Shown here: positions 28,336 through 48,057 of the stretch, one piece after another
Numbering within the stretch: the first letter of the stretch is position 1
How the letters are laid out: every line of letters starts with the position of its first letter
Source of the DNA: Mariprofundus ferrooxydans PV-1
GTDB lineage: Bacteria; Pseudomonadota; Zetaproteobacteria; Mariprofundales; Mariprofundaceae
Reading direction: 5' to 3'
Assembly: GCF_000153765.1 (NCBI RefSeq)
Contig: NZ_DS022295.1
Location: forward strand, 690,887 to 754,886
DNA length: 64,000 bases
Position numbers and translations under genes: made by a program
Notes under the pieces: model-generated
The model's database searches: none
What the model was told of the DNA's origin: nothing
Seen by the model: the letters and a program-made list of their open reading frames with translations, nothing else

Positions 28336-28365
28336 TTTCTTACACACCACTTTTATGATTCAAAT
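28336..28365. repeat. Left terminal inverted repeat of the element
   Basis: TTTCTTACA (28336-28344) followed by a TGATTCA block (about 28356-28362). The right end read on the minus strand has the same two blocks in the same order, with somewhat different spacing. This is the probable recombinase core site. Confidence 0.7.
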
Positions 28366-28370
28366 AGGAC
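28359..28370 (+). repeat. Subterminal direct repeat, left copy
   Basis: TTCAAATAGGAC, identical in sequence and orientation to 48046-48057 near the other end. It is a candidate accessory binding site for the recombination machinery. Confidence 0.6.
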
Positions 28371-28428: not shown

Positions 28429-28848
28429 ATGTGGATACAAAAGACCATCACCCTGAAACCTCGCAGCCGTGGATTTCACTTAATCACCAGTGAAATCATT
28501 TCCAGCCTAGCCGAGCTAAAACAATTCAACATAGGCATTGCGCATCTCTTCATTCAGCACACCAGTGCAAGTTTAACGATCAATGAAAATGCTGACCCTT
28601 CAGTTCGCTCAGACATGGAGAATCATTTCAATCAAAGCGCCCCGGAGAACCAAAAGTTCTATACCCATACCTATGAAGGCCCAGATGACATTACGGCCCA
28701 CTTAAAAACCACAACCATTGGAAACAGCCTTACCATTCCTATCAAAAACGGCCAGCTTGGATTGGGTACCTGGCAAGGCATCTATCTGGGTGAACACAGA
28801 AACCATGGTGGATCAAGAAAACTAGTTGTAACGATGAATGGCGACTGA
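28429..28848 (+). CDS. YjbQ (UPF0047) protein carried by the element
   Basis: 139 residues, full family length, from the second of two adjacent ATGs. Conserved motifs are complete: RSRGFHLIT, FIQHTSASLTINENAD, DMENHFNQSAPEN and [20 protein letters not shown]0047 proteins have been reported to show weak thiamine-phosphate synthase activity; the physiological role is open. It is clearly diverged from the disrupted host gene, oriented oppositely, and lies less than 100 bases inside the left terminus. At the site matching the host insertion point it reads GATGACATTACGGCCCAC against the host GATGACATGCCGGCCCAC. It probably replaces the function lost on integration. Confidence 0.93.
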   Translation: MWIQKTITLKPRSRGFHLITSEIISSLAELKQFNIGIAHLFIQHTSASLTINENADPSVRSDMENHFNQSAPENQKFYTHTYEGPDDITAHLKTTTIGNSLTIPIKNGQLGLGTWQGIYLGEHRNHGGSRKLVVTMNGD

Positions 28849-28949: not shown

Positions 28950-29531
28950 TTAAACCCTCATTATTCTTGATTTCTTGGATAAGTGACTGATTTTATTTTT
29001 CTTGCGAGGGCTGATAAAGAAGGAAAGTGTTGCTTTCTTATTTACCAAGTCAGCAAAATGCTTGATCAAATATTCATAGGCATTACCTAACATGTCTGGA
29101 TCAACAGACATGTTGCCTAATGTGTATTGAGAAAAGTGCTCTACAAGATCCACCAGAAGCCTGTCAGAGAGTTTGTTTTTATTACTCCACTGAGCATCAC
29201 CAAAGATACCATACAAGTATTCCTGGTTAGCTTGCTCGATTCCTCTCAATGCTTTTTCTATGGCTTGCCCTACATTGGTGGAAGTCTCTCTTACATCTCG
29301 CCAGTGGCAGCCTTCAGGGATTTCAAAACGATGGAACTCTGGGAGCAATGCATACTCTTTATCGCCATCGGACTCTTCCAGCGCGATGCGGAATTCTTCA
29401 TCGTAAACATCGGAAATACGGTTAAAGAGCAGCAGTGGAAAGATGTATACCTCGAAATCAGAAGCATCTACTGGGCCCTTCAGTATCCAGGCCGCTTTGG
29501 AAAGATACTGCTCTAATTGCGATAACGACAA
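28950..29531 (-). pseudogene. Truncated type I restriction-modification methylase (hsdM remnant)
   Basis: 193 codons from a TTG. The first ~173 match the N-terminal region of HsdM (QLEQYLSKAAWILKGPVDAS; FPLLLFNRISDVYDEE; DMLGNAYEYLIKHFADLVNK). Where HsdM continues with GEFYTPR the sequence changes to unrelated residues and stops, so the SAM-binding and NPPF catalytic motifs are absent. Complete HsdM is about 500 residues, and no hsdS or hsdR is present. It is a remnant left by an earlier cargo rearrangement. Confidence 0.88.
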
Positions 29532-29779: not shown

Positions 29780-31936
29780 ATGGGTCAGAGAAAGTTAAGA
29801 TGTCACTCATCGCGAAACAGAACCAGTTTCGCTGACATTTCTCTGCCGCTACTTGACCAATTACCAGATGACCTGGCCGACGAGTGGCTAAAGAATCTCG
29901 AACGATGGGCCAAAGGTTTTTCTACCCCAATGCAGGCATTTAAACTCCAACAGGTAACGACCTTTTGGGTAAATTGTCATATCAAATCGCCGCACCAGTA
30001 TCCACTCCCGCCTTTGCTTAAATCAGAAGCCCATGGGTTGATTAAAAATTTGCGGCGGAGTTGGTATGAACACGATATAATTGATCAAGGCGTACAGATG
30101 GATACTGCATCTACGGCTTGGTCTGTATTCCTCCGTTGCATTAAAATTATGTCCCGCGCGGGGCTATTCCCCGAACTCGATTTTTATAGCAAATCGTACC
30201 GTGCCTTTCACATGCAAAAAACCAGAGTATCTCGTGGCCTAGTAAATCCAAAGGTACTGAATGAATGTGCCTCGACGCTGCATGCCACAATGGACATCGA
30301 TAACGACAGTTATCATAGCTGTTTATTGGTACCACTATCGATTCATTTGTCGGATAACGAGTATCTTGAAAATTATGAAAACGAGCTCAGATCATCCATC
30401 AATTGTTTTTCTACGTGCGCAAATCAAGAATTTGAAACATTACAATTGCTAGAAAAAAAAGGTCAGCAGTTAATTGACTCAGTCGACTATGATTTAATTC
30501 AACGAATACTTAATAGTCGAAGGAGAATTGATGGCAGAGTTGATGGAACCAAAGGCGGCTATATTGACCCTTCAAATGGGAGAAACTGGTTTAACCCTAA
30601 AGGTGGCCACCCAGCAGTCTTTGCGAACAACCTCGCACTAGTAAAGTATGAGATGGGAGATCTTCCACAACCATACGTATTTAATGTAGAGAACAGAAAA
30701 TCAATAATTAATGGAAAAAATCATTGGCGTTTTCCAATTCAATTCGGCCGGGAAAAATTATTTTCTCACCTTGGTATATTGACGTGTCGAAACGCAATTC
30801 CTCTGATCGTGCTGCTTTTAATAGATCACCCGCGTTTGAACGTGGAATCTTTACTTAATGCCCGCTTGGTCGACAGCAAAAATCAAAAAATATTAATTGC
30901 CAATGCAGGAGAAAATGGAACGGACCTGCGTCTTACTGTTAACAAAATGCGAGCAAAAAGTCAAAAATCAAGCGTACTCACGCCGCGAGGAAAGGCTATT
31001 CTTGCCGCGGTTCTGAAATGGACAAATCCTGTGCGGAAGTCATTGATCCAACAAAATCGATTGGATGATGCTCGCTATTTATGGGTCGGATTCACACATA
31101 TCGTCGGTTACAAAGTTGGACGCTTCTCAATAAATCAAATGAGAGAAATGTTCCGCAAACCAAATGCGAAAATTGCTAATATAGAAAACAATATTGAAGC
31201 CTCAAATCCAGAAACGGTCCACTCCAGAACTGACTTTATCAGGTCTCATCCAAGCCTTTCACCTTGGGCAACGACAGCAAGGTTATCGAGCCTCAGAGTC
31301 TCTTCCGGAGTCTTATCCTGGTTTGAGTCCCAAGGTGACGTGGCTGTGACAGCCAGAGCATTTGGGCACAAGAATTTAAAAACAACAATCGACAATTATA
31401 TCCCCAAGCCGATACAGGAAGCCATGTATGAGCGTCAAATACGCCGCTGGCAAAATTTAATGATAAGCGCTGCTTGCGCCAAAAAACCTTATCTTTTAAC
31501 AGCAACAGACTTCTCTACACAAGCTCAACTACATGAATTCATTTGTGGCCTACTTCTCGATGCAAATCAAAGTTTCGCAGATGAGACTAGCTCAGCACTG
31601 CTCTCACGATTAAAAGAAATCATTAATCCATCAGTGCTAGAAAGCAAAGAGTTAGTAACTGAATGCAATTCAAAAACATTGCTAATAAATGACCCCCAAA
31701 AGCTTGCTGTGACCATGCTCTACGAAGAAGTCCTTCGTGAGTGTCCGGAGGCTGATCTTGATGCACCAGATCCATCTACAAAAACGACGCCTCGGATGTG
31801 GATTGATTTACTCAATGTATTGAGAGGACCATTACCCGACAGCATGCATGAGTTGAAGACTGCTGTACGCGCAGCTGAAATTATCGCGGGTGAAATTCGC
31901 GGTATCATTTCATTCCCTACGCTCACCGGAAGTTAA
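29780..31936 (+). CDS. Tyrosine-recombinase-like protein 1 of the element
   Basis: 718 residues. The C-terminal part has the recombinase pattern FGHKNLKTTIDNYI, giving His530 and Tyr540. Where HxxR is expected the sequence reads SSLRVSSG, so the first His of the motif appears lost. The N-terminal ~350 residues are an unrecognised, probably DNA-binding region. It is the first of a tightly packed co-directional series (3 bases before the next gene). The altered motif makes independent strand cleavage uncertain. It belongs with the large recombinases of non-conjugative integrative elements. Confidence 0.8.
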   Translation: MGQRKLRCHSSRNRTSFADISLPLLDQLPDDLADEWLKNLERWAKGFSTPMQAFKLQQVTTFWVNCHIKSPHQYPLPPLLKSEAHGLIKNLRRSWYEHDIIDQGVQMDTASTAWSVFLRCIKIMSRAGLFPELDFYSKSYRAFHMQKTRVSRGLVNPKVLNECASTLHATMDIDNDSYHSCLLVPLSIHLSDNEYLENYENELRSSINCFSTCANQEFETLQLLEKKGQQLIDSVDYDLIQRILNSRRRIDGRVDGTKGGYIDPSNGRNWFNPKGGHPAVFANNLALVKYEMGDLPQPYVFNVENRKSIINGKNHWRFPIQFGREKLFSHLGILTCRNAIPLIVLLLIDHPRLNVESLLNARLVDSKNQKILIANAGENGTDLRLTVNKMRAKSQKSSVLTPRGKAILAAVLKWTNPVRKSLIQQNRLDDARYLWVGFTHIVGYKVGRFSINQMREMFRKPNAKIANIENNIEASNPETVHSRTDFIRSHPSLSPWATTARLSSLRVSSGVLSWFESQGDVAVTARAFGHKNLKTTIDNYIPKPIQEAMYERQIRRWQNLMISAACAKKPYLLTATDFSTQAQLHEFICGLLLDANQSFADETSSALLSRLKEIINPSVLESKELVTECNSKTLLINDPQKLAVTMLYEEVLRECPEADLDAPDPSTKTTPRMWIDLLNVLRGPLPDSMHELKTAVRAAEIIAGEIRGIISFPTLTGS

Positions 31937-31939
31937 AAA

Positions 31940-34204
31940 ATGATTAGCCTTCCCAAAGACCTTGTTGAGTATCTAAATAACGATAACGATCAAATATCCC
32001 TAAATGTCAAACCAAGCTGGTTAATAAATAACTTCAAAGATCCTATTTGGTGGCTCAAAAACGCCAATCAAACGCGGCTTGTAAACGACAAGTGGCGTGG
32101 TGCGATTACCATTGACTGGGGAATGAAATTACCTCAAGGAAGACTGACTGACATGCGTTGGAGCAAGCTGCTCCTCCACTGTCAACTCATTGTGATTGCG
32201 CACATCGAATGCCCTCAAGCAGCAACTAGCAACTTAAAGGAAGTTGCAAAATTTCAGCGGACCATGCTTCGAATTTCAGAATACCTTATTTTTAACGCCC
32301 CTGATCAGGCTGAATTGCTTGGATTATCGGCATTATCCAATCATCGAGTCGAAATGCTCCTCGTAGACTCCCTTCATGGGGGGATTTGTGGAACAGGCAG
32401 TTGGTGTAAGCGATGGGATGCATTTATTCAAAGCATTTATTCTGACTTGAAAACAAGGGGGAAGGTAAAACACTGGGCATCAAATCTTCCATCAGACGAA
32501 AGGAGTAAAATCGACAACTGGAACAGGGAAATTATTTCTTCAGATCCTAAATGTCTTCCTGGCATGCCGACTCCTACCACCTTGAGCTCTGAAGAGCTCA
32601 TATTTGCTCGGCGCTGGCTGAAAATGGAAAACATGTTGGATAGAAATGGAACCGTACCACTACTTACAGTTGCCGACCGAATTGGTGTTGACAGAGTGCG
32701 CATAACAAAGTCCAAACATCTAATTTACCATCTTCGCCCGTTTGAACAGTGTATCGATTATCGGCATCAAGAGCAGGCCAGCAACCTCTGCCGTGAAAAA
32801 CTTAGCCATCGCCATAAGACCATTGCTCAGATAGCTACAACCCATTGTAGCTCAAGCGCACAACTAAACCTATATCAAGGGCTGAGTTACTTACGCCGCT
32901 ATGTACAGTATTGCGACAGCTTAAAAGATTCACAGTTACACGCATTAAATTTAGAGCGTATTCCCCCTGAGCTAAAGGGATGCGGGCCAAAGAATCGTAC
33001 TCCAACTCTACCTGTTGAAGTCGCACTATTCATTTATGATCATATGATAGATTGGGTTCTAAACTTAACTATTCCGTTGATTGACTATTACTTAGAAATT
33101 TTAGGCAAGGTCATCAAGCAACAAGGCAATGCATTACGAATTTCAAAAAACATGAGAGCCGGCTGCGATGCACTGGGCATAGATATGCCCGACTACTGGG
33201 AGAATGCATTCTCTGAGACCCCTCCTCCAGCAGAGCTTAAACGCTTAGGTATCTGGAGGGTTGGACCAATCTTTTATGAGGCTATTAATTCACCGAAAAA
33301 ATATCGCGATGCCGCAGGGAACAGTCTGTTGCCTAGCATCATACGCAATTCAGGGTTAACACTTATTGATGCCATGTTAATGAATTCAGCTGTCATTGTG
33401 GCTGTTACAGCTGCATTTTCAATACGACGTATCCAAGAACTCCTGAATTTGCATCCATCAGCGGTAAAAATAACTCAGGGAAGAAACTACCTCGACTTTA
33501 ACCTGGAAAAAGTAGGCATTGATGACACACGTTCACCGGCTTGTCGTCCAATACCCAGCTTTGTTGGAAAAGCACTTAACAAACAAAATCTATTATCACG
33601 AAAATTATCAGATGCCAATAAGTTACGAAAACATGACCCCCAAATAGATAAACTATTATTTATCAGGCCCTCAAATTCAGCAGGAACGCCCCTTTGCTAT
33701 ACTTTTTTCAGAAAATATCTTGACCTGTATTGCGATTATATTGAATCACCATGCGATAGAGAAGGTAGGCGGTGGTATTTGCAAAGTCACGAGCCCCGTC
33801 GTTTTGGCGCAATGAGCTTCTTCCATCTCTGTGGGATGGAGAACTCACTCCCAGCCCTCACTTGGTTCATGGGCCACGGGGATATTAGCCAAACCTGGCA
33901 TTATATTCGCGAAGAACTAACTGGCGCAGAGGTTACAAGTATCGAGGTTGCAATGGCAACTTCAGCCCTACTTAATCAACAAGTTCTTGGGTCGGTCAAG
34001 GGGGACAAAAAACTTAAAGATGTTCTAGCCAATCACTTTGGATCAGACAGGCTGGATCTCATTGATCCGAATGACTTGGATCAATATCTACAATATTTAC
34101 ACGAAGAAGGTGTTTATACAGTTACACCTCACACTATTAAAACAAGTAATGGAGAAAAGCATGTGATTGTCATCAATTACTCAAAGGAGGTTACCCATGC
34201 CTAA
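31940..34204 (+). CDS. Tyrosine-recombinase-like protein 2 of the element
   Basis: 754 residues. Catalytic signature visible near the C-terminus: FSIRRIQELLNLH (first Arg), HEPRR (His617, Arg620), MGHGDISQTWHYI (His646, Tyr655). The N-terminal half has no recognised domain. It overlaps the next gene's ATG by 8 bases and begins 3 bases after recombinase 1, so the set is one operon. The large size and arrangement recall the 'tfp' or large Int proteins described for strand-biased circularising elements of Vibrio; that comparison is from memory. Confidence 0.82.
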   Translation: MISLPKDLVEYLNNDNDQISLNVKPSWLINNFKDPIWWLKNANQTRLVNDKWRGAITIDWGMKLPQGRLTDMRWSKLLLHCQLIVIAHIECPQAATSNLKEVAKFQRTMLRISEYLIFNAPDQAELLGLSALSNHRVEMLLVDSLHGGICGTGSWCKRWDAFIQSIYSDLKTRGKVKHWASNLPSDERSKIDNWNREIISSDPKCLPGMPTPTTLSSEELIFARRWLKMENMLDRNGTVPLLTVADRIGVDRVRITKSKHLIYHLRPFEQCIDYRHQEQASNLCREKLSHRHKTIAQIATTHCSSSAQLNLYQGLSYLRRYVQYCDSLKDSQLHALNLERIPPELKGCGPKNRTPTLPVEVALFIYDHMIDWVLNLTIPLIDYYLEILGKVIKQQGNALRISKNMRAGCDALGIDMPDYWENAFSETPPPAELKRLGIWRVGPIFYEAINSPKKYRDAAGNSLLPSIIRNSGLTLIDAMLMNSAVIVAVTAAFSIRRIQELLNLHPSAVKITQGRNYLDFNLEKVGIDDTRSPACRPIPSFVGKALNKQNLLSRKLSDANKLRKHDPQIDKLLFIRPSNSAGTPLCYTFFRKYLDLYCDYIESPCDREGRRWYLQSHEPRRFGAMSFFHLCGMENSLPALTWFMGHGDISQTWHYIREELTGAEVTSIEVAMATSALLNQQVLGSVKGDKKLKDVLANHFGSDRLDLIDPNDLDQYLQYLHEEGVYTVTPHTIKTSNGEKHVIVINYSKEVTHA

Positions 34205-34733
34205 GCTAAAACCTGGTGAAATAGCCCCTGGTGTTGCTGCTATATCACAAAAGAAGCAGGCTTCTGTCCGCAACCTTTTAAAGGTCCTTCAGAAAGCATT
34301 GTCTACTCCTAAGGATACGCCACAGACGACACTAGATGCTATGAGCGGCTACAGGGCGCTATGCAAATGGAAAGATACTGATCTTGGTATCACGCCCATG
34401 TCAGAAGCTACTTTGCGTAAATACATAAAAAAATTCTATAAAGGTGGCCTGCCTAGCTTCGAAAAAGACCGCCAAAAAATCCTTATCAGATCTGTTTCAG
34501 CCATTGCAAAACCAGGCACCAGAGATGCGTATAAACAAACATGTAAAAACGTGCATGATGAAGATCAAGTTATTACCAATCACATTCTACAATTCTCCAA
34601 TCAATATCTGGACTTATTAGAAAAAACATCAGAGATAAGCCGCTCTCATAAGTTTCTACAGGATACTCTTAAAGCTCATACCTTAGCTTATCCAAGTGCA
34701 TTTCGTGGCCTTCGAGTCATCACCGATGAATAA
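34197..34733 (+). CDS. Small protein inside the recombinase operon, unknown
   Basis: 178 residues from the ATG at 34197, chosen because AAAGGAGG lies 6-7 bases upstream (an earlier ATG at 34167 lies further inside recombinase 2). Basic and helical (KKQASVRNLLKVLQKAL; ATLRKYIKKFYKGGLPSFEK), with no catalytic signature. It overlaps both neighbours by 8 bases, so it is probably a stoichiometric partner of the recombinases, such as a DNA-binding or directionality factor. Confidence 0.75.
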   Translation: MPKLKPGEIAPGVAAISQKKQASVRNLLKVLQKALSTPKDTPQTTLDAMSGYRALCKWKDTDLGITPMSEATLRKYIKKFYKGGLPSFEKDRQKILIRSVSAIAKPGTRDAYKQTCKNVHDEDQVITNHILQFSNQYLDLLEKTSEISRSHKFLQDTLKAHTLAYPSAFRGLRVITDE

Positions 34734-36153
34734 ACAAACAATAAAAAGACAATTGTGGAAAACAACTGACGAGCGTTGCAAGTTAACCCTGTATCTAGGA
34801 AGCAATGGCCCTGTCTACCGATCTGTTTCAGGCGTAAGAGTCCTGTTCTGGCCCAGTCTAAAACCTTGCTGGGAAGCCAATATGTATATTGTACACCGCC
34901 TACGCATGGGGAGATCAATTGGAACAGTAAGGAACGATGCTGCTCAAATTGCTTTACTATTAGTATTCTTATATCAACAAAATCTCTCTTTTGATGATAT
35001 TTCAAATGACGTGATGAATGCATTTAGTGATTACCTTGTTAATGAAGAAGACAGGGTCGTACCGCAGTCAAAACGTCGTGGTGGTCGGCAAACAAACAAA
35101 ATTCTACGGCGAACTTTAGACTACCTCCAGTGGTATCAAGCTCTGTTTCCGGTTCGCAATGTTCTCGTGGGGCCTTACGGGAGTGGAGCTCAAATTACCG
35201 TTGAAGAAAAGTCGGTTAAGGTTAATCGCAGAAATACCCATTATCTGCGCCATGAGTGCATGGTACCCAACGATATAGCAAGAGATGTTAAGCCTATGGC
35301 TAGAAATATTTTTACATCGCTATTGGATGCATGTGGTGAAATAGCAAAAAGCAGGTTCGTACAATCCCGGGCAAGAATAATGCTTAAGCTGCTGAGTGAC
35401 ACTGGTGCCCGTCGCGTAGAAATAGCCACAATTCTCGTTGAAGATGTTTTACGGACCAAAAAAAATGGTAGTTGCAAACTCCTACTAAAAACAGCTAAGC
35501 GTGGAGATTGGAAGGAACGTCTAGTGCCAATTCCAGAGGCCACGTTAGATGCTCTTTTAACATTTATCGAAATCGACCGACGCTTGCATCTTCGCAAACT
35601 TAAACACAAACAGAAAGAAATTACTGACAATACAGGACCATTACTTCTTACATTTAGAGGCAAACCATTGAGTACGCCGACTATTACCGTGGATATCTCC
35701 CGGTTACGTAAAATTGCAGGCATCTCTGAGCGAGCTACTGCACATATGTTACGCCACAGGTGGATCACCATCCAGGTTGTAGAGCGCCTAAAAGCATATA
35801 TTGGCAAGAAGTTACCCATAGATATTGAAAATACTATTCTTACAAAAGTCGCCTCCATGACGGGCCACAAACAGATCGAAAGCTTAAAACCATATATCTA
35901 TTTGGCGTTTGATGAAATGGGGGTTTGGGATACTTCTGATGCTGTTATCAATATGCGTGTTAATGCGGAGGCAGCGCATCGAGAAATCCAGGAAATCAGA
36001 CAATCTCATCCCGATGGTGAATCGTTAAAGAAGAATGACTTAAAACGAGTGGATAAGCTGCTAGAACAACTTTTGGAACATATAAAACCAGAATTTGTCG
36101 AGATAGCAAACAAACGGCTTTATGGTGAGGTAAGTTTGGATGCTTATATGTGA
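34726..36153 (+). CDS. Tyrosine recombinase 3 of the element
   Basis: 475 residues. All catalytic elements are seen: SDTGARRVEIATILVED (first Arg), a Lys-rich beta hairpin around LKTAKRGDWKERLVPIP, HMLRHRW (His340, Arg343), MTGHKQ, and PYIY with Tyr390 as likely nucleophile. The N-terminal region resembles a SAM-like core-binding domain. It is the most canonical of the three recombinases and probably the main strand-exchange enzyme. Its ATG overlaps the end of the preceding small gene. Confidence 0.88.
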   Translation: MNKQTIKRQLWKTTDERCKLTLYLGSNGPVYRSVSGVRVLFWPSLKPCWEANMYIVHRLRMGRSIGTVRNDAAQIALLLVFLYQQNLSFDDISNDVMNAFSDYLVNEEDRVVPQSKRRGGRQTNKILRRTLDYLQWYQALFPVRNVLVGPYGSGAQITVEEKSVKVNRRNTHYLRHECMVPNDIARDVKPMARNIFTSLLDACGEIAKSRFVQSRARIMLKLLSDTGARRVEIATILVEDVLRTKKNGSCKLLLKTAKRGDWKERLVPIPEATLDALLTFIEIDRRLHLRKLKHKQKEITDNTGPLLLTFRGKPLSTPTITVDISRLRKIAGISERATAHMLRHRWITIQVVERLKAYIGKKLPIDIENTILTKVASMTGHKQIESLKPYIYLAFDEMGVWDTSDAVINMRVNAEAAHREIQEIRQSHPDGESLKKNDLKRVDKLLEQLLEHIKPEFVEIANKRLYGEVSLDAYM

Positions 36154-36571: not shown

Positions 36572-36595
36572 ATAAACTTACGCAAATGGAGATTG

Positions 36596-37126
36596 ATGAT
36601 GATGGCGAAGATGAAATTGATGAGTAAACAGGACCAAGCGCGGATGCTTCAGTATCTCGATAGCGAAGAGGAACACATATTGGCGAAGACTATATATTCG
36701 CTACTTCTGGATGGACTATGTGTAGGCGAGATAGTGCGGCTGGACTGTGAGAATCTGCGAAATATTGAAGATGGAAATTGTATTTTAGAATTGGCGAGCT
36801 CTGGCAGGTCGGCGAACCACTACACTGGGTATTTGCTGAGCAAAGTGTCAATTGAAGCCTTGCTCAAGCTGAAAGATGCAAAAAATGAGAAAGCCGGGCC
36901 GGTTTTTCGATCCGCAAATGGAAAAAGGATGACTGCTCATGAGCTAAGTCGAATTCTCACTAAGTCATTAGAAAAAGCTGGATCAGAAAGCTATTCCAGC
37001 GATTCAGTTCGAAAGACGGGGATAATGCGTCAGTGGCTTTCGATGGCCCCCAAGCCTAGTCAGTTGAGTCAAGATGTTAACATCGATATGGTGAACGCAT
37101 ATTTGAAAGAGATTGATCAAAAGTAA
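36596..37126 (+). CDS. Degenerate integrase-like protein
   Basis: About 176 residues; three consecutive ATGs follow GGAG, so the exact start is open. It resembles only the catalytic domain of tyrosine recombinases: YSLLLDGLCVGEIVRLDCENL corresponds to the TGLR-x2-E region but has Cys where the catalytic Arg should be, and DSVRKTGIMRQWL stands in for the HxxR helix. No GH...Y ending is visible. It is probably inactive, or a DNA-binding derivative. Confidence 0.6.
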   Translation: MMMAKMKLMSKQDQARMLQYLDSEEEHILAKTIYSLLLDGLCVGEIVRLDCENLRNIEDGNCILELASSGRSANHYTGYLLSKVSIEALLKLKDAKNEKAGPVFRSANGKRMTAHELSRILTKSLEKAGSESYSSDSVRKTGIMRQWLSMAPKPSQLSQDVNIDMVNAYLKEIDQK

Positions 37127-37278
37127 TCTATTTGCATATTCCAGTCAAAAGTCCCACCTCTTCTTGGCAATTTTAGCCAAGACAGTTTCAGCACCCCCCT
37201 CGGCCTAGGGCCAGCAACCGTTGCCAACACTCGTGGGTTACGATCAGGTTCGAGGTAGGTGCTTTTTTGCCTGTTCAG

Positions 37279-37330
37279 GGCGGACATCTGCCGATCGATC
37301 ACCACAGGAAACTCGCGGCCAAAGCAGACA
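37279..37330 (-). repeat. Palindromic island repeat, copy 1 (partial)
   Basis: Read on the minus strand it has TGTCTGC-TTTGGCCG, then CCTGTGGTGATCG and CGGCAG, and ends TGTCCGCC. It shares the core of the intergenic repeats found further right and lies between the degenerate integrase and the polymerase gene. Confidence 0.6.
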
Positions 37331-37357
37331 CTAACTTAATCAACCAGAGGCCTGAAT

Positions 37358-40370: not shown

Positions 40371-40436
40371 GAATGGCTAATCCTGGCCGTGAGACGCCTG
40401 TCGCGATCTGCAGAAGTCGGCCAACAACGGTCATTC
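40371..40436 (+). repeat. Palindromic island repeat, copy 2
   Basis: GAATG...TGGCCG at one end and CGGCCA...CATTC at the other pair with each other. Centre: TGAGACGCCTGTCGCGATC. Plus orientation. Confidence 0.75.
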
Positions 40437-40492
40437 AGCAAATGTTTACGTAATAAGCTATCCTGACAGGAAACAGTTGGATGTGGGGGAAT

Positions 40493-41082: not shown

Positions 41083-41166
41083 TTGTTTATGGTCAGTGAA
41101 TATTTTGTGCTGTTTTATATGCCCGGGTCAGGCATGAGTTATTGAGTTATTCATTCAAGCTAATGG

Positions 41167-41228
41167 ATGTCTGTGTTTGGCCGTGAGTCGCCTGTCGTGA
41201 TCGGCAGTAGTCGGCCAACAGCGGACAT
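41167..41228 (+). repeat. Palindromic island repeat, copy 3
   Basis: ATGTCTGTGTTTGGCCG pairs with CGGCCAACAGCGGACAT; the centre is TGAGTCGCCTGTCGTGATC. It is the best preserved copy. Plus orientation. Confidence 0.8.
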
Positions 41229-41300
41229 ACGATTTAGTGATTTACGCTAGCCGTAACAGGCGCCATGCTGCGAAGCGCATCGAAGAGTTTGACGTCATTG

Positions 41301-42266: not shown

Positions 42267-42440
42267 CTGCTGATGGAACTCCTTTTTTCGGCATAACCTG
42301 GTAATACGTGCACTAGTTTTTCCATGTATTACCCTCCTATATACGCCCTTGTTTTCCATGTTATTGCATATTAAAGGCAAAACAATGTACTGCATCAGAT
42401 TTTCCTGAGTAGATCCCGATTTTCACAGAAAGGTTGCTGA

Positions 42441-42500
42441 CTGTCCATTTGTGGCCGTGAGTCGCTTGTCGTGATCGGCAAATAGCAGCCGTTCAGGGTT
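42441..42500 (+). repeat. Palindromic island repeat, copy 4
   Basis: CTGTCCATTTGTGGCCG, then the same TGAGTCGCTTGTCGTGATC centre as copy 3, ending GCAGCCGTTCAGGG. The right arm is degenerate. Plus orientation. Confidence 0.7.
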
Positions 42501-42537
42501 TTGGCTATGATGTTCCATCTGAGGGGCGGAAAGACTT

Positions 42538-43296: not shown

Positions 43297-43351
43297 AATA
43301 GTTCAAAGACAAAATATTCATGCTAGATGCAGTAGTTTGCCTCTGGTTGCT

Positions 43352-43413
43352 GAGTGTCTTTTGGTCGATTTGAGCCGGTCGCGACAGGCGACTCACGGCC
43401 ATAAGCAGACATT
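43352..43413 (-). repeat. Palindromic island repeat, copy 5
   Basis: Minus orientation: read on the minus strand it runs ATGTCTGCTTATGGCCG, TGAGTCGCCTGTCGCGACC and ends CGACCAAAAGACACTC. The core equals copies 2 to 4 inverted. Confidence 0.75.
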
Positions 43414-43499
43414 TGTGCTCACTATGAATATGCTATAAGCTAAAATGAAAGTGCGCTTATTCGACTAGCGTGAAACTCGGATATTAATTGGAGAAGCCA

Positions 43500-43877
43500 A
43501 TGGCATGTTTAGTAGTCTGGGAGGCGGAAGGTGCTTATAGAGAATTCACTGGCGTTGTTAGTGTACATGAAATCTTAAAATCTAATCTTGAGTTATACGC
43601 TGATCCTCGATTTAAGAATGCTTCATATCTTATTGATAACTTCTCAGAAATATCAGGCTCTACGGTAGAGCCCTCTGATTTAGGGGCTTTAGAAGTAACA
43701 GATGAAATCATATCGCAGGAATATCACGATATTAAAATCGCTTTTATAGTTGCCCAGGAACCACGTGAAATTGATATGGCAAAGAGTTATTGTGATCAAA
43801 TGAAAGACAAGGGTTTTAAGTATGAGTATTTTCTGACCGTTGATAATGCTCGAAAGTGGGCTACCAACAAACTCTAG
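43500..43877 (+). CDS. SpoIIAA-like (STAS-related fold) protein
   Basis: 125 residues from the ATG at 43500 (GGAGAAG upstream; a TTG lies at 43488). The sequence follows the SpoIIAA-like family: an N-terminal VVWEAEGAYREFTGVVSVHEI, the middle NASYLIDNFSEISG, then IKIAFIVAQEP and a final strand-helix. The family is small, cytoplasmic and of unknown function. It is bracketed by island repeats on both sides. Confidence 0.75.
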   Translation: MACLVVWEAEGAYREFTGVVSVHEILKSNLELYADPRFKNASYLIDNFSEISGSTVEPSDLGALEVTDEIISQEYHDIKIAFIVAQEPREIDMAKSYCDQMKDKGFKYEYFLTVDNARKWATNKL

Positions 43878-43886
43878 TTAATTTAT

Positions 43887-43942
43887 GAATGGCCGCTTAT
43901 TGCCCTTCGTGACAGGCTGGGTGCGGCCATGAACGGCCATTC
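43887..43942 (-). repeat. Palindromic island repeat, copy 6
   Basis: GAATGGCCG and CGGCCATTC form the outer arms; the centre contains CCTGTCACGA on the minus strand. A shorter, diverged copy ten bases after the SpoIIAA-like stop. Confidence 0.65.
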
Positions 43943-43973
43943 TTTAATAGGGATCAATGCGCGAAACGAGTCC

Positions 43974-44672: not shown

Positions 44673-44791
44673 ATTGTTCTCCCCTTTATAATTGTAGGCC
44701 CGGCACACCATTAATTCTCTTGATATTGGATATTAAGATCAAACATGGAACGCGCAATGTGCTTTGATGATACTTTCAGATGCCTGCTTGA

Positions 44792-44812
44792 GTGTCCATA
44801 GTTGGCCGAAAT
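44792..44812. repeat. Palindromic island repeat, copy 7 (half)
   Basis: GTGTCCATAGTTGGCCG followed by AAAT: only one arm of the repeat. It runs straight into the left copy of the 39-bp inverted repeat. Confidence 0.55.
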
Positions 44813-45063
44813 CAGCCCTTCAATAGAGGGTTACTTTCATCTGAATATGCATCTTGCCTCAAGGCTGTCCTATATCGCATAGCCTGAATGAGAATTAAGT
44901 TCATAATTATACAGCCAACGGTAAGCGCAGTATCCAGCTGGCTGATATCTTCTAGCCAAATGATCGCGCTGAAGATAATCGTGGTAATAGAGCAAAAGTA
45001 GATGACTGACCTTTCCAAGGTGAGCCCACCCCTTTTTTTGGTTTCAAAATCTATATTGCTCAT
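44812..45063 (-). CDS. Small two-TM protein bounded by long inverted repeats
   Basis: 83 residues, with a charged N-terminus and two TM helices (SVIYFCSITTIIFSAIIWL and ALTVGCIIMNLILIQAM). The C-terminal codons (about YSDESNPLLKG) lie inside the left copy of a perfect 39-bp inverted repeat whose other copy is upstream of the gene. No family recognised; no obvious ribosome site. Confidence 0.6.
   Translation of the reverse strand: MSNIDFETKKRGGLTLERSVIYFCSITTIIFSAIIWLEDISQLDTALTVGCIIMNLILIQAMRYRTALRQDAYSDESNPLLKG
44813..44851. repeat. 39-bp perfect inverted repeat, left copy
   Basis: Exact reverse complement of 45121-45159. It starts with CAGCCCTTCAATAGAGGG and covers the 3' end of the two-TM gene plus its stop. 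Beyond the 39 bases both copies run into arms of the palindromic island repeats (TTGGCCGA on the left, TGGCCGTC on the right). Confidence 0.95.
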
Positions 45064-45120
45064 AGGAGACAGAATATGACCCTATAAGTGTCTTTACAAG
45101 AAGATATCGGGTAGCCACCT

Positions 45121-45159
45121 TGCATATTCAGATGAAAGTAACCCTCTATTGAAGGGCTG
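45121..45159. repeat. 39-bp perfect inverted repeat, right copy
   Basis: Exact reverse complement of 44813-44851; begins TGCATATTCAGATGAAAG. It lies upstream of the two-TM gene, so the 3' end of that gene has been duplicated in inverted orientation. Confidence 0.95.
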
Positions 45160-45163
45160 CTTC

Positions 45164-45217
45164 TGGCCGTCTATTGCCTGTGGCGACCGGCAAGGTTCCG
45201 CCATAAAGAGACATTCA
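45164..45217 (+). repeat. Palindromic island repeat, copy 8
   Basis: TGGCCGTCTATTGCCTGTGG, then CGACCGGCAAGG, ending CCATAAAGAGACATTC. Diverged but clearly related to copies 2 to 5. Plus orientation. Confidence 0.65.
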
Positions 45218-45303: not shown

Positions 45304-47568
45304 TTACGATGGATGCGCTCCACTCTCTGGGTGATGAGTGCTAGTGGGAACATTCTCAACGTAGTCTGAGCCCATCATCATTCTATAGTGAGCCCCGTGC
45401 CCCGCCCTTTCGAATACTTTTTTGAAAACGTCAAGGTAGGCATCAATCATGGAGTCATCACAGGCGGTATAAATATCATCAGTGGCAAAGTGAGAGCCAT
45501 CGTTAACCCAAGAGAAGAGCGAGTTACACAGTAATCTTTCCCGACCTTCGAAATAAGAGCATATTTCATCACGGTCAACACCTCCTGTGATCGTGAAATA
45601 GTTTTCCAAAACTCTTCTTAGAGTGTTCTGCATAGAATGATTCGAGCGGTGTTCGCGATCTCTGACATCGGCCCATAAAAGTTCATATGAGGTTTTTATC
45701 GGATTGGAATTATGGCGCTGTATTGCTGACTCGCTGTTACGTTTCCTGACGGTCCAGAAAGACTCATGACTCATCAGGCCGCCTCGCCGATTACGGTTGT
45801 ACGAAACTTCTTTATGAAAGTAAACGTTGTGAGTAAAAACAAACACTTGCTTTATGTGGCCGGCTCCTGAAGCGACTTCATCAAGAAGGCCTTTTATCAA
45901 ACTGCTTACGACAAATAATATGTCACTATCCAGACTGGAGATCGGATCATCAAAGACTACGATGCGATCTGTTGTCATTCCGCTTTCTGACTCACTTCCT
46001 TTGAGTAAGTGGTAAAAGTATAGAAATGTGATGAACGTTTTCTCACCTTCGCTCAAAGACTCCTTCGCATCAGTGCCATCTGCGCGAACAAGTTTATAAA
46101 AGCGTTCTTGGTCCGATGGGGCTAGGGAGAATCCGTGAAATCCAAATGAAGCAAGCAAAGCATTAATGCTATCAATGGTTGGTTGGATGCTAGTCATATT
46201 CCTTTCAAGGGTTCTGATTTCTTGCTCTTTAGTTCGGATGTCATTTGTTTTTGATTGAACTTGGCTCACTAATGAATCAATCGCTCTTCTCAAGGCCGTT
46301 TTATTGCGCTGATAGTCGCTAAGGTCATGGGATATTTCGTTATCCAACAAATACTTCCACACCTCGGTTGTTAGCTTGCTTCGCTCTTGCTCAAGGTTTG
46401 AAACCATTTGATTGTGTTCCAAGATGGCGGTGTTAGCAGCGGCAAGCAGGGAGTTGATTTTGTTTATGATGTTGGACAGAGACTCAAGCTCAATCCTCTG
46501 ACGCGATTCGTTTTTCTTTTCTCTAATACGTTGAAGGTTGACCTCAACTTTAGACTTCAGCAGCTCTACCTCTGCCTCAAGCAGATTTACATTCAGAAAT
46601 CTCGAAGGGGAGGACATGATTTCTAACAGCTTTTGCTGAATGCGAGTGCTTTCGGTCAAGTAATCATCGTACAGTTGCTGAATCGACTGAAGGTCGTTTT
46701 CGTAAGCTTCATCAAAGTAAGATTCAAGGCTTGCTGCGAAGGTCTCCTCTGTTTCTCGTTGACAGAAGGGGCAGTGACCATCGTTGATGTCGAAGAATGA
46801 CCTTCCCTGCCTGACCCAGTCGCTATTGCCTAACCTTTCGATCATCGCCGCTATATCCACATCGGATTTGCCGACTACCACTCGGCCCAGGATGGGGTTG
46901 CTTTCATAAGCAAGAAGGACATCAGAAGAAGGGGGATCTATTTCACCTTCAGGACTGGGGGTTTCTCCAAAGACAGAAGATGCTTTTTGGCGAAGGTACT
47001 CTAGCGCTTGAGCACTAGCCGTATTTGTTTCTGCTTCTGACATCAGACGAGCAGTGAATCGTTCCTTACTATTTCGGACCCCTTGGAAAGCACCTTGGAA
47101 GTGCTCGTCAAAGCTGTTTTTCAACCGCCAGCAAACCTCTTGGAAGCGTTGCTCTAGAGCGGCGAGTTCAGCTCGTTTTCCACCTTCGCCATCGTTTCCT
47201 TCAAGAGTTCTTTTCAACCGAAGGATTTCGGCAGTTAGAGAGTCTTTCTCGGCTTTAGCATCGTCAATTTGTTGCAGGAGGGACATGTCTGACTCCCCCA
47301 AAGTAAAAACGCCTTTCAATTCAGATGATTGATCAAAGTTACTCTCTACAAAATCACGGTTATAGACCATCGTTTCAAGAGGGCTTCCCCCTCGCCAAGA
47401 AATGGTACAACTCGGATACGCCCTTTCATCAGCTATGACGCGAGCTATTGTGGTTTTCCCAGAGCCATTCGGGCCATAAATAAAGTTGTGCTTCGTTAAA
47501 CCGGACATCGTAACTGGAGCACTGCCATAGCTTGCTACATTACATATGGAAATATCCTCAATCATAGG
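45304..47568 (-). CDS. RloC-like AAA/ABC ATPase with zinc hook
   Basis: 754 residues from the ATG at 47568 (AGGGGGGTGG upstream). Domains in order: Walker A GPNGSGKT (31-38); a long coiled coil split by a zinc-hook motif CPFC (Cys266, Cys269) as in Rad50; ABC signature LSEGEKTFI; Walker B RIVVFDDPISSLDS; H-loop FTHNVYF; and a C-terminal domain. That domain has Arg651-x3-Glu655 (TLRRVLENYF) and His693 (DGSHFATDD), a spacing close to the Arg-Glu-His triad of the PrrC/RloC tRNA anticodon nucleases. It is therefore a candidate phage-exclusion tRNA nuclease. The motif also occurs in related AAA_13 proteins, so the nuclease call is tentative; the ATPase call is firm. Confidence 0.82.
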   Translation of the reverse strand, partial: PMIEDISICNVASYGSAPVTMSGLTKHNFIYGPNGSGKTTIARVIADERAYPSCTISWRGGSPLETMVYNRDFVESNFDQSSELKGVFTLGESDMSLLQQIDDAKAEKDSLTAEILRLKRTLEGNDGEGGKRAELAALEQRFQEVCWRLKNSFDEHFQGAFQGVRNSKERFTARLMSEAETNTASAQALEYLRQKASSVFGETPSPEGEIDPPSSDVLLAYESNPILGRVVVGKSDVDIAAMIERLGNSDWVRQGRSFFDINDGHCPFCQRETEETFAASLESYFDEAYENDLQSIQQLYDDYLTESTRIQQKLLEIMSSPSRFLNVNLLEAEVELLKSKVEVNLQRIREKKNESRQRIELESLSNIINKINSLLAAANTAILEHNQMVSNLEQERSKLTTEVWKYLLDNEISHDLSDYQRNKTALRRAIDSLVSQVQSKTNDIRTKEQEIRTLERNMTSIQPTIDSINALLASFGFHGFSLAPSDQERFYKLVRADGTDAKESLSEGEKTFITFLYFYHLLKGSESESGMTTDRIVVFDDPISSLDSDILFVVSSLIKGLLDEVASGAGHIKQVFVFTHNVYFHKEVSYNRNRRGGLMSHESFWTVRKRNSESAIQRHNSNPIKTSYELLWADVRDREHRSNHSMQNTLRRVLENYFTITGGVDRDEICSYFEGRERLLCNSLFSWVNDGSHFATDDIYTACDDSMIDAYLDVFKKVFERAGHGAHYRMMMGSDYVENVPTSTHHPESGAHPS

Positions 47569-47810
47569 TCCACCCCCCTGATGATCACAGGATAGACCTA
47601 ATTTATGATAATGAAAGGAGTGCACCCACCACCCACCGAAACGCACCGAAGGGGGAGTTTGCTCAGTTACCAAGGTGCATTATTTTTAGCGGCTCAGCGA
47701 AATTTTCTCTTATGTTTCAATAGGATTTAGGCCACTGGTGGCGCGTCCCTAAATCGTCACCATGATTGTTTTGAATCCATTAGATTTTAGCCATCTGAAT
47801 GTCCACTATT

Positions 47811-47967
47811 GGCCTATTCTGTTGAAAAACTATTTATCTAGTCTCCGTCCAAAAAGGCGACCTCACCAAATCCTCTACAATCGATTTTTCGTCATAGGGT
47901 AAGGATAAATGACCCCATGAAATAGGATAAATTTCACCCCAATCAGAGTTTTTCAACAGAATAGGCC
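47811..47967. mobile_element. 157-bp MITE-like element
   Basis: Bounded by perfect 21-bp inverted repeats (47811-47831 and 47947-47967) containing TATTCTGTTGAAAAACT, an end sequence common in IS-derived elements. No ORF inside. It has inserted into the GGCC of an island palindrome, splitting copy 9. Confidence 0.75.
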
Positions 47968-48045
47968 GGATTGAGACAGTTACTAGCTTGATAGCAATAC
48001 AACAACGTTCACCTTAGCTAATAGCCACGTACCTTTTTGATGGGT

Positions 48046-48057
48046 TCAAATAGGACT
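48046..48057 (+). repeat. Subterminal direct repeat, right copy
   Basis: TTCAAATAGGAC, identical to 28359-28370 and in the same orientation, about 70 bases inside the right terminus. Confidence 0.6.

Follow-up and report, generated by a model that had tools for sequence, protein, structure and literature searches.

An inverted copy of a gene end anchored in two island palindromes of Mariprofundus ferrooxydans PV-1

How can the 3' end of a small gene come to be present a second time, inverted, upstream of the same gene, and does such an arrangement act as a switch? These questions are raised by a gene coding for 83 residues that lies in a genomic island of Mariprofundus ferrooxydans PV-1, within a window (the whole stretch of DNA that was analysed) of 64,000 nucleotides. 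An earlier note on this DNA had described exact 39-bp reverse complements around the gene, the left one being the gene's own 3' end, and both observations stand. The two arms (Table 1) are reverse complements at 39 of 39 positions, with the next base mismatched on either side, and the left arm corresponds to the gene end, the last base of the stop codon excluded; this codon reads TGA in the left copy versus TGC in the right one. The arms enclose the start, the upstream region and most of the gene. When mismatches are tolerated, they grow outward to 54 nt at 91% identity (44798-44851 and 45121-45174), with a spacer of 269 nt.

The repeat is far beyond what chance would produce. It is the longest exact inverted repeat in the window at separations of up to 3 kb, while dinucleotide shuffles of the window (n = 20) gave longest inverted repeats of 12-18 bp, and across 20 stretches of 20 kb sampled from this genome (400 kb) the longest one measures 25 bp. 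A search of the whole genome (2.99 Mb, 4 contigs) with the segment returned seven matches, namely the segment itself, two arm-to-arm matches and four at E values of 0.16 to 7; there is no other good match to it anywhere in these contigs. The inverted duplication of the gene end is real, well defined, single in the genome and anchored in two palindromes.

Table 1. Positions, in the 64-kb window, of the inverted repeat, the gene that it encloses and the palindromes of the island.
Feature	Position	Strand	Remarks
83-aa ORF	44812..45063	-	two hydrophobic stretches; near-orphan
Left arm (exact inverted repeat, 39 bp)	44813..44851	-	3' end of the 83-aa gene, through the TG of the TGA stop
Segment between the arms (269 bp)	44852..45120		would flip upon recombination between the arms
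Right arm	45121..45159	+	second, inverted copy of the gene end, on the upstream side
Palindrome family member	37264..37334	-
Palindrome family member	40371..40437	+
Palindrome family member	41165..41231	+
Palindrome family member	42439..42505	+
Palindrome family member	43351..43414	-
Palindrome family member	43877..43943	+
Left palindrome	44789..44821	-	outer arms lacking the central 34 model positions, GG/CC join; weak, 10.0 bits
Right palindrome	45151..45217	+	complete family member; 72.9 bits

Both palindromes belong to a family of interspersed palindromes of about 67 bp, with the consensus centre TGCCTGTCGCGACCGGCA, which separate the genes of the island between 37264 and 45217 and of which seven full-length members are present there. 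The two copies of the gene end had been said to run into arms of these palindromes. Both do so, and the right palindrome is complete, but the left one is a shortened member whose centre is absent. The alignment of the left palindrome to a covariance model built from 11 members (the right palindrome included, the left one left out) spans the model from end to end and lacks precisely its central 34 positions (10.0 bits, E 0.0033 for 201 bases). In view of this alignment, the left palindrome, initially interpreted as a half-site, is taken to have had its centre deleted. Each arm of the inverted repeat joins the final 30 bp of the gene to the palindrome's first 9 nt, in an identical model register on both sides.

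A palindrome is found at most 130 bp from the 3' end in 8 of 13 island genes, a list that was hand-compiled from the open reading frames; the left palindrome and one bearing a MITE-like unit are included in this count. Positions of this kind would fit bidirectional terminators or the limits of modules. With respect to distribution, the family has a match at E 1e-7 or better in 9 of 23 genomes of the genus, the own genome counted, and exact-pattern searches of genome contigs retrieved six stretches, five of them in Pseudomonas and one in a Burkholderiales MAG; related palindromes form clusters in Pseudomonas contigs. The palindromes, present in the genus and in Pseudomonas and delimiting many island genes, are the more interesting object of this locus. 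Should they mark the limits of modules, the island would amount to a type of cassette array for which a literature search with the palindrome core strings returned no description; this is a weak test, sequence strings rarely appearing in full text. The palindromes had also been suspected to be integron attC sites, on account of short GTTAGTT/GTTAGCT motifs, and this candidate was rejected because the consensus has no paired core sites of the attC type.

On the Pseudomonas aeruginosa plasmid NZ_OR283034.1, a family member (locus L030, 15001-15062) has toprJ1 on one side and a Shedu nuclease gene on the other. An interspersed repeat of the host, GTCAGGCATGAGTTATTGAGTT, is located at 41127-41148, just before the palindrome at 41165; the genome contains eight copies of it at up to 2 mismatches (control, 0), and in locus L076 two inverted copies are 966 bp apart. 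A MITE-like unit with exact terminal repeats of 21 bp (containing TTCTGTTGAAAAACT) occupies 47797-47985, within the outer arms of a member of the palindrome family. The same arrangement is present in the Pseudomonas loci L062 (14115-14294) and L065 (4617-4802), and L066 (5036-5198) carries a different unit between similar palindrome arms.

The 83-residue protein has hydrophobic stretches at residues 16-41 and 40-64 (19-residue Kyte-Doolittle windows above 1.4) and is without a match in Pfam, NCBIfam, PADLOC or PHROGs. In a search of 100 related genomes the gene was found in two, its own included, and a search of 398 genomes of the phylum gave two again, the query being a two-row alignment that already contained both matches. 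The sole relative found (genome G015, locus L026) is 29% identical over 59 residues (E 1.3e-4) and lies in a different context. Pattern searches for relatives of the gene yielded 127 stretches in genome contigs and 29 in viral contigs, with no relative among them, and none in plasmids; with the G015 relative as query, none of 15 stretches in viral contigs was confirmed and plasmids gave nothing. No second island with the gene emerged from these searches. A phage match of 54 bases to the gene body (E 0.03) was regarded as due to chance. The G015 relative aligns weakly into the C-terminal residues that are encoded by the left arm, and beside it an inverted repeat of comparable kind is absent, one chance-like pair (25 nt, 72% complementarity) being detected in 3 kb. 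The left copy is therefore favoured as the native one.

In our judgement, the inverted repeat is somewhat probably a scar of replication or repair, left by template switching or gene conversion between palindromes of opposite orientation, an origin for which no function of the repeat is needed. The homologous anchor would be provided by the two palindromes, which flank the gene in opposite orientation. A nascent strand may have switched template between the two palindromes, or gene conversion may have run over a short tract; DNA synthesis would pair at the shared palindrome arm, run 30 bp into the gene end and then return. As a result, the 30 bp of gene end beside the left palindrome would be placed, inverted, beside the right palindrome, 57 bp upstream of the start codon. 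The centre of the left palindrome could have been lost by slippage between its two GGCC steps; its gap lies exactly between GG and CC, as expected of such an event. Inverted copying of the gene end to a site upstream, as had been proposed before, is the best reading, with the boundary of the tract now placed inside the palindromes. The direction of copying (from the gene end to the upstream region), the mechanism, the timing and the loss of the left centre by slippage are what we infer from the present arrangement of the sequence.

The boundary of the copied tract can be located by comparing the two palindromes. Their columns outside the 39-bp block are identical at 15 of 24 positions, versus 39 of 39 inside it (Fisher p = 5.5e-5); the 15/24 was hand-counted from alignments, and since the block had been selected for maximal matching this p value is somewhat flattering, although the step is still sharp. 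The drop in identity indicates that the copied tract ends inside the palindromes. The 15/24 outside the block further suggests that the left and right palindromes are probably older, separate members of the family, between which the identical tract was copied.

In yeast, template switching between imperfect inverted repeats makes the arms identical and sometimes inverts the spacer, according to a published survey (PMC8604942). The present locus resembles such quasipalindrome-type events, since imperfect repeats of opposite orientation have gained an identical tract, in register, whose boundary falls in the pre-existing repeat. It differs from them in that its arms are 269 bp apart, whereas the spacers in that survey extend only up to 70 bp (PMC8604942). 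This long spacing speaks against template switching, as do the lack of microhomology at the inner junction and the low significance with which the model recognises the left palindrome (E 0.33 over 20.5 kb). The database searches yielded no locus, ancestral or sister, that shows the state before the event.

Perfect identity of the arms had been taken to suggest a recent event, a conclusion that is not supported. At 5% divergence, 39 bp would remain identical with a probability of 0.135, and the 95% bound on divergence is about 7.4%. Perfect identity is accordingly a poor measure of age, as 39 identical bp limit the divergence to no better than about 7%.

A different origin, rather unlikely in our view, is that the right copy is what remains of a second whole gene. 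Two head-to-head copies, each followed by a palindrome, would have been unstable, and a deletion would have left the last 30 bp of the right copy together with its palindrome. The right copy does consist of gene end and palindrome in the correct order and register, and 10 bp of the stub upstream of the gene (AGAAGATATC) recur exactly in the gene body, with the order and orientation that a deleted copy would have (shuffle p 0.021-0.023). However, apart from this 10-mer, positions 45064-45120 show no similarity to the gene body. Moreover, 9 of the 24 positions shared by the palindromes differ between them, whereas the gene-end blocks differ at none of 39; the right copy and its palindrome are thus not a recent joint duplicate. 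Kugelberg et al. are said to have described, in 2010, tandem inversion duplication in Salmonella, with asymmetric deletion of the inverted duplications. The likeness would be that inverted copies arise near palindromes and are trimmed by deletion. Here, in contrast to the direct-inverted-direct triplication, only two copies of the block exist in the genome, the third direct copy is absent, and one of the two is just 30-39 bp long.

It appears quite improbable that the locus works as an invertible switch, in which recombination between the 39-bp arms would flip the enclosed segment and yield the 83-residue protein in one orientation and a protein of 113 residues with a new C-terminus in the other. 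After a flip, the start and the 57 bp preceding it would be unchanged, but the stop would be lost and 30 residues would be gained by reading through the right palindrome. The arms are exact and their 39 bp fall inside the range of 10-40 nt reported for the inverted repeats of invertons (PMC11892184), and in yeast the spacer of perfect inverted repeats has been documented to invert, in the survey mentioned above (PMC8604942). The flipped frame is indeed open for 30 more residues, but this extension is simply the palindrome read through. Similarly, tyrosine recombinases are encoded elsewhere in the island (a match at 34696-36153 and a sub-threshold one at 36593-37126), but no recombinase adjoins the segment, the nearest of these reading frames, 36593-37126, being 7.7 kb away and having a Pfam match below the cutoff. 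Neither the core-like inverted arms in the repeat (shuffle fractions 0.07-0.64) nor the similarity of the arms to the island ends (0.09-0.88) is significant, and no second copy of the locus in which the other orientation might be seen was found in the genome, in genome and viral contigs, in plasmids, in phages or in the 398 genomes of the phylum.

The locus shares with invertons the exact inverted repeats of 39 bp around a segment of 269 bp, and differs from them, whose repeats are acted on by an invertase that is commonly encoded in the vicinity, in that no adjacent invertase was found and the repeat is explained by a gene end plus a palindrome. The suggestion of an invertible segment made in the earlier note, with no adjacent invertase and no significant core site, is unsupported, and a replication scar is the simplest account of the locus. 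The present case serves as a warning that exact inverted repeats enclosing a small gene do not by themselves make it an invertible switch. We also give very little credence to a combined possibility, in which the palindromes would act as recombination boundaries between cassette-like modules, each holding one or a few genes and lying between two palindromes, and in which the module of the 83-residue protein, once copied, would be flippable at the palindrome-anchored 39-bp arms, so as to alternate between a membrane protein of 83 residues and one of 113 with an alternative C-terminus.

Equally slight is the probability that the arms are the terminal inverted repeats of a small mobile element, a transposable unit of 347 bp carrying the gene. 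The terminal position and length of the arms fit such a unit, and a MITE-like unit with terminal repeats of its own does occur within palindrome arms (47797-47985), also in Pseudomonas loci. Nevertheless, further copies of the 347-bp unit number zero in the genome and none was found in viral contigs, plasmids or phages; there is no target-site duplication at the arm ends, and on both sides the arms end inside palindromes. Least probable of all is a functional RNA or DNA structure, in which the arms would pair in the transcript or in a cruciform and control the gene, for instance because RNase III cleaves the stem or the 3' end is sequestered: a long stem is predicted on both strands (-173.8 and -178.5 kcal/mol for 461 nt, energies without shuffle comparison), but such folding is common to any inverted repeat of 39 bp, and on the gene strand there are no promoter-like sites in or just upstream of the right arm, the nearest lying at 45277-45250 (two found versus a shuffle mean of 2.8).

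If the inverted repeat is a scar of copying between palindromes, the interspersed palindromes of the island can anchor inverted copying of adjacent gene ends. With regard to how often this occurs, scans for exact repeats covered 26 other palindrome loci (341.6 kb). Ten loci from Pseudomonas and the own genome (119,584 bases) contained no exact inverted repeat longer than 22 bp, and among the 222,010 bases of 16 loci in eight further genomes of the genus none exceeded 20 bp where the spacer was 20 bp or more. The inverted copy of a gene end beside a palindrome is most likely a one-off.

The island that hosts the locus is inserted in the chromosomal yjbQ, whose 5' part lies at 48392-48111 and 3' part at 28341-28180 (both on the minus strand); a complete, island-borne yjbQ (28429-28845, plus strand) is located just inside the left end. 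The island ends have in common TTTCTTACA (inverted) and the 12-bp TTCAAATAGGAC (28359-28370 and 48045-48056). Four overlapping or adjacent open reading frames, of 718, 754, 188 and 485 aa, occupy 29780-36153, the last one with a Phage_integrase domain and the first three fitting no named family. Distant relatives of the second (31940-34204), for the most part with integrase annotations, are carried by plasmids of Pseudomonas, Providencia and Acinetobacter (23-33% identity), and a search for this reading frame in 61 genomes found it in its own genome only. The last (34696-36153) was sought in viral contigs, where none was found, and in NCBIfam it obtained just general XerC/XerD-type matches below the cutoff and one chance match. 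This series of recombinases had led to the suspicion of a gamma-mobile-trio island, which was discarded since 29780-31936, 31940-34204 and 34167-34733 match no NCBIfam family. Between the right palindrome and the MITE-like unit, the minus strand (45304-47673) codes for an AAA_13 ATPase of 789 aa that matches the candidate anti-phage family PDC-S06 (E 3.3e-290). Near the left end of the island, also on the minus strand (28950-29531), there is a truncated HsdM N-terminal domain of 193 aa, which is probably a restriction-modification remnant.
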